Positions 60,626 to 64,000 of a stretch of 64,000 nucleotides of DNA are shown piece by piece. The position numbers and the translations under genes were made by a program. The DNA comes from Clavaria fumosa (taxonomy: Eukaryota; Basidiomycota; Agaricomycetes; Agaricales; Clavariaceae). Numbering within the stretch: the first letter of the stretch is position 1; each line of letters opens with the position of its first letter. The DNA is taken from positions 2,232,001 to 2,296,000 of the forward strand of contig OX637801.1 in NCBI GenBank assembly GCA_951802425.1, given 5' to 3'. The notes below the pieces were generated by a model. The model was given only the letters and a program-made list of their open reading frames with translations, did no database searches and had not been told where the DNA came from.

Positions 60626-60840
60626 TGACACATGTTTCGCACTGTGCCAGTAAATCGTCTAGCACCCGAACCGTGTTTGGTCACTCGTTGCCCAACGTTC
60701 AATCAATAAAAATGTCAACATCCTCAGCTCCCGCCTCACACGCTCTCTCCACATAACTCCCTTCATCCGCTATGATCCAGTCTTTCCCGTGGTTTTTTGA
60801 GATTACAGCTTGGGCTATGTTTACAGCACTTACTTTTGTA
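60626..60840 (+). repeat. direct repeat copy A: shared promoter and first exon
   Basis: About 200 bp alignable with 63804-64000. It covers the upstream region (GACACATGTTTCGCACTGT, CGAACCGTGT, CAATAAAAATGTCAA) and the first 66 coding bases of the membrane-protein gene. Confidence 0.8.
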
Positions 60841-62619
60841 CCCGACAACCCTTTGAACAAATTTCTTCGATTGTCCTCGGCATTTTCCAACGGTGTGTCT
60901 CCATTTCTGTCACTATTTGTAAATTCACTTAGACTGCCTTCTAGCAAACAACAATCCCAGCAGTGCGTCTCCATTTCTGTCGCTATTTGTAAATTCACTT
61001 CGACTGCTCTCTAGCAAACCCCAATCCCAGCGGTGTGTCTCCATTTCTGTCATTATTTGTAAATCCACTTAGACTACTTTCTCGCAGATGGCAATCCCAG
61101 CAGTGTGTCTCCATTTCTGTCACTATTTGTAAATCCACTTTGACTGCTTTCTAGTTGACCCCAATATTAGTATCGTGGTCAGGGATCCGCCTGCTCTGTG
61201 GATCATCTTGGTCGTAGTATGGAGTTTGCGGTCTCTGTATACCTTACTTCTGGCCTGGTACTCTTTTTTGCGTCGTGACCCTTCAAGGAAGCGGAGACCT
61301 GGGATCGGTTGCGCTCTTCTTGCGTTTGGATTAGTGATTGTGTTTTTTTGTGTGTCCTGCTCCTTGCATCCTGAGATAGTATTCTCATGACTTCTCTCTA
61401 TTCACATTCCCCAATGTCAAACAAAACAAACAGTCGGATGCGTGGTTGCGACATATGTGCTGTGGTGGCTCAAGGCCAAACACCAACTGGCTCTTATGTC
61501 GAGCAATATCTATCTCCTAGATGCATTTATTGGTGCGTATGTGATCATGATGTCGCCCCATGCACCTCGCCTCACCCCTCGCCCCCTTGTCGTCCAGGTG
61601 CAATCGTAACGGGCGCTCTCGCTATCGTGTCAGCATTGATCTTTTTCACTATCTGGGTGTCGGAATTCCCTCTGCCGCGCCGCGATCCCGACGCTGGGCC
61701 TCCACCGGTTTCCAACCAGCCTTGCCCTCCAACGTCTCGCTTATCATCCTCATCATCCAACAATACTGAAATAAGACACTCTCCAACCAACGCTGGGCCT
61801 CCATCAACTTCCAACCGGCCTCCTCCAATATCTGATGTATCAACCAACAATGCTCTAATGGGACTCTCTGTTGGTTTGCAATCTCAGTCGGAATCCTCCC
61901 TACCTGACGCTGGGCCTCCATCGACTTCCAACCAGCTTCACCCTCCACCCTCAACCAGGCACCCAACCAACCCTATATCGACCCAAGGTTTCAGTCAGGA
62001 CTTACAGGGGCATATTCCTCGTGACCCGGAAGCTGCATTGTCTGCAATTTCTGTATCGTCATCTGGACCCCCCCCACCACCCCGGAGACCATCTCGGGGG
62101 CACGAAAGTGCTGGCTCCGATAACCGGCACGAAAGTGCTGGTTCTGATAGCCGGCACGAAAGTGATGGCTCTGATAGCCCCGTTCTAATGACCGAGGTGG
62201 CTCGCCTTGGAGCTCGCTCATCAGCACGCTTTGATCCCTCTGCATTCCCAGTTTCGACCGCGAGTTTGGCCAGCACTCACCGGACATCGACACACACTCA
62301 TGCAAGTCCTCAGGCGCCGTCATCCAACAATGCTGACGCAACGAGACACTCTCCAGTCAATATTCAGTTATCCAGCAATGTACGTATGCCTGCTCGCCCC
62401 GTTCCGTCGGATCCAAACGGTTCCAGATTCCGTGAAGAAACAAACACGGATAGCTCCAGAAATCAACGTATGCCTGCTTACCCCATTCCATCAAATCCAT
62501 ACGGTACCAGATTCCGTGAAGGCATAAGCACGGATAGATTCCGTGAAGACATAAACACGGATGGCTCGCCTTGGACACACGTCTTCCGCAATTTTTCTAG
62601 ACGTCACGCTTCACGCTAG
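60772..62619 (+). CDS. multi-pass membrane protein gene with tandem phase-1 microexons
   Basis: Unrecognised family. Exons: 60772-60892, 60945-60962, 61015-61032, 61088-61102, 61155-61349, 61434-61532 and 61598-62619, total 496 codons (495 residues). All six introns are phase 1. Exons 2-4 are 18, 18 and 15 nt and add the peptides NNNPS, NPNPS and GNPS, ahead of DPNIS in exon 5. The N-terminus (PWFFEITAWAMFTALTF) may be a signal or membrane segment. Further membrane segments are ALWIILVVVWSLRSLYTLLLA, CALLAFGLVIVFFFGCVVATY and GAIVTGALAIVSALIFFTIW. A hydrophilic tail of about 310 residues follows, with repeats: (D/N)AGPPxxSN three times, HESxGSD three times, and RMPAxPxPSxPxGxRFRE twice. Intron 5 (84 nt) could hide another microexon. 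Confidence 0.7.
60891..61163 (+). repeat. 70-bp tandem repeat, four copies, each an intron-microexon unit
   Basis: Units start at 60891, 60961, 61031 and 61101, exactly 70 bp apart. Each holds a donor (GTGTGT or GTGCGT), the shared body CTCCATTTCTGTC..TATTTGTAAAT.CACTT, an acceptor (CTAG or GCAG), and a short exon matching C/A-AATCCCAGC. The period is not a multiple of three, so the whole unit is not translated. Confidence 0.92.
62101..62178 (+). repeat. 27-bp coding repeat, three copies
   Basis: Encodes HESAGSDNR, HESAGSDSR and HESDGSDS in the hydrophilic tail of the membrane protein. Confidence 0.85.
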
Positions 62620-63803: not shown

Positions 63804-64000
63804 TGACACATGTTTCGCACTGTACAGTAAAACATCTAGCACTCGAACCGTGTATCACTCGTTGCTACCAATGTTCAATAAAAATGTCAAGTCCTCAGTT
63901 CCCGCCTCTCAATATAACTTCTCCCATCTGCTATGACCCTCCTGATTTTTGCGTGGTCTTTTGAGATCGCAGCTCTTGTAATATTTACATTGATTACTTT
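63804..64000 (+). repeat. direct repeat copy B: shared promoter and first exon
   Basis: Aligns with 60626-60840, 3.18 kb away in the same orientation. Conserved words include GACACATGTTTCGCACTGT, CGAACCGTGT and CAATAAAAATGTCAA. Confidence 0.8.
63933..64000 (+). CDS. second copy of the membrane-protein family, 5' end only
   Basis: Begins at the ATG at 63933 in the same position relative to the shared promoter as the first copy. The visible 22 residues (MTLLIFAWSFEIAALVIFTL and on) keep the pattern W-x-FEI-x-A...FT-x-(L/I)-T-F of copy A with many substitutions. The window ends inside the first exon, so nothing can be said about its microexons. Confidence 0.6.
   Translation, partial: MTLLIFAWSFEIAALVIFTLIT

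Follow-up and report, generated by a model that had tools for sequence, protein, structure and literature searches.

A tandem array of 70-bp intron-bearing units with predicted in-frame microexons in a gene of Clavaria fumosa

The 70-bp array and the gene around it

The window analysed here is the whole 64,000-nt stretch of Clavaria fumosa contig OX637801.1 between positions 2,232,001 and 2,296,000. Towards its right end lies a gene, which we call gene A (plus strand, 60772-62619), whose model yields 495 aa and a stop (496 codons) once six introns, all six of them in phase 1, are removed (Table 1). Four of these introns fall within a tandem array of four 70-bp units. Tandem Repeats Finder (TRF) returned the interval 60893-61154 with period 70, 3.7 copies, 86% matches, no indels and a score of 398 (among the eight TRF rows for the window, the sole one with this period), and the array itself is far above chance expectation. 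In pairwise comparison the units are identical at 57-62 of 70 positions (copies 81-89% alike). Every unit opens with a GT donor and has the AG that is used at base 52 or 55, giving GT-AG segments of 52, 52, 55 and 52 nt in units 1-4; unused AGs are also present in each unit, at position 40 and/or 68. The acceptor of unit 3, a GCAG, sits 3 bases downstream of the TAG used by units 1, 2 and 4. The final 18 nt of unit 4 form the start of exon 2, so that this unit contributes no microexon. An earlier note on this DNA had described four tandem units with GT-AG introns of 52-55 nt, and TRF and the unit comparison confirm them; its gene model, with microexons of 18, 18 and 15 nt, phase-1 introns throughout and 496 codons, was reproduced. 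We considered an assembly artefact and set it aside, as the units appear to differ too much among themselves.

Table 1. Positions of gene A, the 70-bp array and paralogue B in the window. Percentiles (donor, acceptor) refer to the strict set of introns described in the text.
Feature	Position	Strand	Basis or remark
Tandem array, four 70-bp units	60893-61172	+	TRF and unit comparison
Unit 1	60893-60962	+	unit comparison
Unit 2	60963-61032	+	unit comparison
Unit 3	61033-61102	+	unit comparison
Unit 4	61103-61172	+	unit comparison
Exon 1, start codon to phase-1 end	60772-60892	+	ATG position matches B and C
Intron 1 (unit 1), 52 nt	60893-60944	+	donor GTGTGT 69th, acceptor TAG 28th percentile
Predicted microexon 1, 18 nt	60945-60962	+	gene A splice model
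Intron 2 (unit 2), 52 nt	60963-61014	+	donor GTGCGT 39th, acceptor TAG 17th percentile
Predicted microexon 2, 18 nt	61015-61032	+	gene A splice model
Intron 3 (unit 3), 55 nt, acceptor GCAG	61033-61087	+	61st, 56th percentile
Predicted microexon 3, 15 nt	61088-61102	+	gene A splice model
Intron 4 (unit 4), 52 nt	61103-61154	+	44th, 17th percentile
Post-array exon, hydrophobic segments	61155-61349	+	hydropathy; protein identity 85% to C, 83% to B
84-nt intron, position common to B and C	61350-61433	+	weak sites (17th, 17th percentile)
Exon, 99 nt	61434-61532	+	gene A splice model
65-nt intron	61533-61597	+	position common to B (73 nt) and C (1151 nt)
Last exon, low-complexity tail, 27-bp and 84-bp tandem repeats	61598-62619	+	TRF and gene model
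Paralogue B, first bases	63933-64000, continuing past the window (G000:C8:2295933 onwards)	+	genome search

The predicted peptides are ANNNPS for microexon 1, TNPNPS for microexon 2 and DGNPS for microexon 3, and together the three predicted microexons make up 51 of the 1488 coding bases of gene A. The five-residue xxNPS peptide that had been proposed for every unit thus holds for microexon 3, while microexons 1 and 2 would add six residues each. All eight combinations of inclusion and skipping of the three microexons stay in frame, as had been claimed. This frame symmetry probably lies within chance, as about one duplicated exon edge in three would have a length divisible by three.

Hydropathy analysis placed strong hydrophobic segments past the array in gene A, one of them near residue 160, and past the corresponding position in a paralogue, B. 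The N-terminus of B is also strongly hydrophobic, and the N-terminal segment of gene A falls below the threshold used. The product of gene A looks like a membrane protein, and a positive-inside reading by eye suggests that the microexon loop would lie outside the cytosol. Tandem repeats are also found in the last exon of gene A, at 62099-62562 (27 bp x3, 84 bp x2, 27 bp x2). The best two named matches of an ELMO protein encoded next to the array gene are from Asterophora parasitica and Mycena chlorophos, both of which are Agaricomycetes.

Paralogues B and C and the family they form with gene A

A search of the genome itself (48.76 Mb in 17 contigs) found two relatives of gene A, which share its contig: paralogue B, whose first bases close the window, and paralogue C, ~260 kb upstream. 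Two queries each at the DNA and protein level, for which the best candidates were scored, gave no further family member in this genome, and genome match counts for the A/B/C family are lower bounds. Seven weak protein matches on contig C11 (L030-L036, 691-1028 kb, E 0.004-0.18) were dropped by eye from their translations; they apparently form a family of their own, having a hydrophobic span and a tail of low complexity, or are chance hydrophobic matches.

At the position of the array, B and C each have a single 48-nt phase-1 GT-AG segment and no microexon, bearing out the claim that unit number can differ (one intron in each of two paralogues, four in A). The acceptor of this segment is GCAG in both B and C, as in unit 3. 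The following exon, the 84-nt intron, an exon, an intron and a long last exon come in the same order in B, C and A, and removing the 48-nt segment and the two later introns leaves open proteins of 358 aa in B and 334 aa in C. Exon 1 of B ends AACCCCAATG and its exon 2 begins ACCCCA. Over 1.17 kb, part of which is 5' flank, B and C are 94% alike. For A and B the figure is 85%, across the 587 aligned columns that begin at the last unit, and the unit introns have 83-88% identity to the B intron outside gaps. Counted as differences, the intron portions show 3-8 changes in 52 positions when one unit is set against another and 6-8 across aligned positions when a unit is set against B, suggesting that the copies are not very young and have not been homogenised. 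The last intron of C holds a near-perfect inverted repeat (L006:2846-3904, 1.06 kb; 524-nt arms, 99% complementary, with an 11-nt spacer), which stretches this intron to 1151 nt.

The placing of the array within a gene, made in the earlier note, looks real: A, B and C share exon order, intron phase and open spliced frames, including the long last exons. Gaps between B and C are a multiple of three in 6 of 8 cases in coding exons and in 3 of 5 in the 5' flank; the two other coding gaps (19 and 38) lie towards the end, in tails that align poorly between B and C. The coding tandem repeats of A and B all have periods that are multiples of three (27, 84, 27 and 66), and the 70-nt period of the intron-bearing unit is no such multiple. 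The family seems prone to repeat expansion. In B, a 66-bp stretch that is missing from C resembles a duplication.

The family is under weak coding constraint (dN/dS: A-B, 0.73; A-C, 0.78; B-C, 0.95). In exon 3 the ratio is 1.22 (A-B) and 1.35 (A-C), on few changes. Across the three copies the 84-nt intron keeps 96-99% identity, and in the A-B comparison its value (96%) is above that of the adjacent exons. This conservation points to patchy gene conversion, to fast protein change, or to a segment that is not an intron. The protein collection yielded no homologue for residues 1-185 of A (1448 candidates, E up to 0.001) or for the opening 135-138 residues of the three copies in alignment (1933 candidates at E up to 10), in a search that reaches only proteins of similar length sharing short words. 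A Pfam search to E 0.1 gave no family, and gene A is missing from the predictions of the self-trained gene model. We read the A/B/C family as real, young and fast-evolving.

Probable splicing and origin of the array

Splice sites were ranked against a strict set of 36 introns from the window (median 55 nt, range 47-105 nt), in which coding sequence was required on both sides and introns >110 nt are excluded by construction. The first self-trained set of 104 introns was contaminated (~10% GC donors), with weak branch motifs in the 93 introns kept initially, and 68 introns were dropped before the strict-set percentiles were taken. The donor of intron 1 ranked at the 85th percentile in the earlier set and at the 69th in the strict set, and the stricter figure is quoted. 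The commonest fungal-type branch pattern occurred in 15 of the 36 strict introns and 8.8 times in shuffles, a moderate enrichment. Measured against the strict set, the donors of the units lie at the 39th-69th percentile and the acceptors at the 17th-56th, with those of units 1, 2 and 4 weak (17th-28th); intron lengths and splice sites in the array are ordinary for the genome. In gene A the unspliced frame meets a stop inside the array, and retention of any single array intron leads to a stop at codon 71-77. Retention of these sites is no sign of function, since a neutral simulation with the observed point changes and no indels left the array fully spliceable and open in ~59% of cases.

The splice-grammar score was -9.9 with all microexons included, -9.3 with one 262-nt intron and -9.5 with microexon 3 alone kept, a tie indicating that sequence alone is insufficient to prove microexon inclusion. 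In fungi with short introns, the spliceosome pairs neighbouring sites across the intron (intron definition). On this mechanistic ground, together with the tiny exons and short introns of Phanerochaete, we predict that the microexons are likely to be included in the mRNA; inclusion would likeliest be largely constitutive.

Because B and C have a single GT-AG segment at this place, the array is either an expansion of an existing intron and exon edge or the larger state from which the paralogues collapsed, and we infer that A gained units rather than that B and C lost them. It is possible that the segment in the common ancestor had both AGs (TAG and GCAG). In the explanation that we consider best, with a probability of about 0.6, a short phase-1 intron and the adjoining exon edge would have been duplicated in tandem, by slippage or unequal crossing-over, leaving gene A with four ~52-nt introns where its paralogues have one. 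The spliceosome would most likely remove these introns singly by intron definition, since each has its own donor and acceptor and is of ordinary length and strength. Three in-frame microexons would result, setting 17 Asn-Pro-Ser-rich residues between the N-terminal and the next hydrophobic segment.

Two other origins were set aside. Recombination between short direct repeats, here the exon 1 end and exon 2 start of B, has its appeal, but neither end is a clean match for the microexons. Introner-like elements are near-identical introns found across many genes, whereas the listed matches of a 578-nt array query in the own genome (at least four) all fell in A, B and C. A 17-nt intron-start pattern gave 109 and 96 matches versus 84 and 89 in the reversed control, a small excess.

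It is unlikely, in our judgement, that the array is a minisatellite within one 262-nt intron, with the donor at 60893 and the acceptor at 61154 in use and the microexons never present in mRNA. The splice-grammar score is on par for the two models, the frame closes equally well without the microexons (478 aa), the three microexons together score as non-coding (-7.1 bits), and the inner sites were often kept by chance in the neutral simulation; a single intron spanning tandem copies of a 24-bp repeat is moreover reported in fission yeasts (PMC4974935, in the part of that source available to us). Such splicing would, however, pass over four neighbouring donor-acceptor pairs whose spacing, 52-55 nt, is the favoured one, and just 2 of the 104 self-trained introns were >110 nt (257 and 258 nt, under a model length limit of 300). 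The repeat introns of Cryptococcus, in the accessible part of their description, are spliced separately with EST support (PMC2395259).

A further idea is that the family is one unspliced frame (135 codons in B, 138 in C) and gene A a copy that the array has broken. B and C are indeed open from the ATG via the 48-nt segment into the 84-nt segment, where they share the same stop; the 48-nt segment is open and a multiple of three, so that it is possibly unspliced there. The conservation of the 84-nt segment and its weak sites in A point the same way, as do the empty homologue search of the protein collection and the near-neutral dN/dS. Against this, when the first 14 codons of each unit are read as coding and compared with B, 5, 6, 6 and 5 codons differ in units 1-4, with 0, 0, 1 and 0 of these synonymous, so that in three of four units every difference is a replacement or a stop. 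The near-absence of synonymous change indicates that the segment is not evolving like an exon, and fits an intron. The long last exons, open in all three copies when spliced, the preponderance of B-C coding gaps that are multiples of three, and the location of the 27- and 84-bp repeats of A in the last exon further argue for a spliced gene, and we hold the unspliced frame to be improbable.

An equally improbable case is that the microexons are skipped combinatorially in a schistosome-like manner, giving up to eight variants of the loop. The eight in-frame combinations would permit it, acceptor strengths are unequal and some of them low, and the residues preceding NPS vary among the microexons. 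Yet neither paralogue has a microexon, there is no sign of regulated skipping, and microexons have changed more than introns but not significantly so (units 1-3: 5/18 vs 9/52 positions; Fisher p = 0.33). The suggestion that the gene generates variants is therefore unsupported. More doubtful still is a contractible array of NPS microexons in an extracellular loop that would yield surface variation, through unit numbers that vary among strains and several skip combinations within each strain; the gene A array alone is no demonstration of a new variation system. The array would offer a testable model of whether fungal spliceosomes, working by intron definition, include such exons automatically.

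Gene A beside known repeat introns and microexons

Schistosome micro-exon genes, as the parts of two sources available to us describe them, have a coding region made mostly of micro-exons; their introns are long, and a signal peptide and alternative splicing are reported (PMC4350168, PMC10526429). Gene A has in common with them a run of tiny symmetric exons, here predicted, in a membrane-associated protein. It differs in the small share of its coding sequence that the microexons occupy and in introns of ~52 nt, and it is fungal, whereas the schistosome families are, on these partial accounts, apparently restricted to platyhelminths. The gene A array works like the schistosome micro-exon genes but is no member of them.

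The statement in the earlier note that no fungal counterpart had been described was wrong, since single microexons, as well as polymorphic, spliced, intron-containing repeats, are on record in fungi. In the accessible parts of the sources, Phanerochaete P450 genes include exons as small as 6 bp, and introns of 45-55 bp are frequent in them (PMC1184071), and a 20-nt microexon in Xlr2 of the ascomycete Trichoderma is reported as a switch in a 2024 paper according to which functional microexons had not been described earlier in filamentous fungi (PMC11121469). The Phanerochaete genes resemble gene A in having very small exons beside ~50-bp introns in a basidiomycete; unlike those of gene A, the Phanerochaete and Trichoderma microexons are not described, in these partial accounts, as copies of one another. 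Searches of the open-licence literature turned up no tandem microexon array from a fungus.

Tandem repeats and an intron also coincide in fission yeast genes, in which a 24-bp repeat, present in two or four tandem copies, is reported to be crossed by one intron (PMC4974935, citing Zhu and Niu); there, according to the same partial source, the repeats are exonic and are spanned by a single intron, unlike in gene A. In the potato case, in the portion available to us, duplication of an existing intron-exon stretch gave rise to a further intron, whose signals were inherited, along with additional coding sequence, as proposed here. That case concerns one duplication in a plant, and gene A would have three extra intron copies side by side.

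The nearest likeness is to CNN00420 of Cryptococcus neoformans, in which ~107-nt repeats, each a whole intron with exon ends, show EST-supported splicing and vary in copy number among strains; the gene also has shorter exonic repeats of ~39 nt (Sharpton et al. 2008, PMC2395259; as given in the accessible part of that paper). On that partial description, both genes hold basidiomycete direct repeats in which each copy comprises a full GT-AG intron and, as predicted for gene A, exon sequence, and both have related copies with fewer repeats, namely strains in Cryptococcus and paralogues B and C, with one each, here. The CNN00420 introns are identical or almost so in a ~107-nt unit, whereas the gene A unit is 70 nt and its copies are visibly diverged; the predicted exon part in gene A is just 15-18 nt. 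What is new relative to CNN00420 is that the single-intron state is visible in two paralogues and that the exon part is so small that each copy is predicted to make a symmetric microexon. The array would be a small case of microexon birth, in which duplicating an intron of ~50 nt along with a few bases of the adjoining exon yields, in a single step, one symmetric microexon per extra copy.
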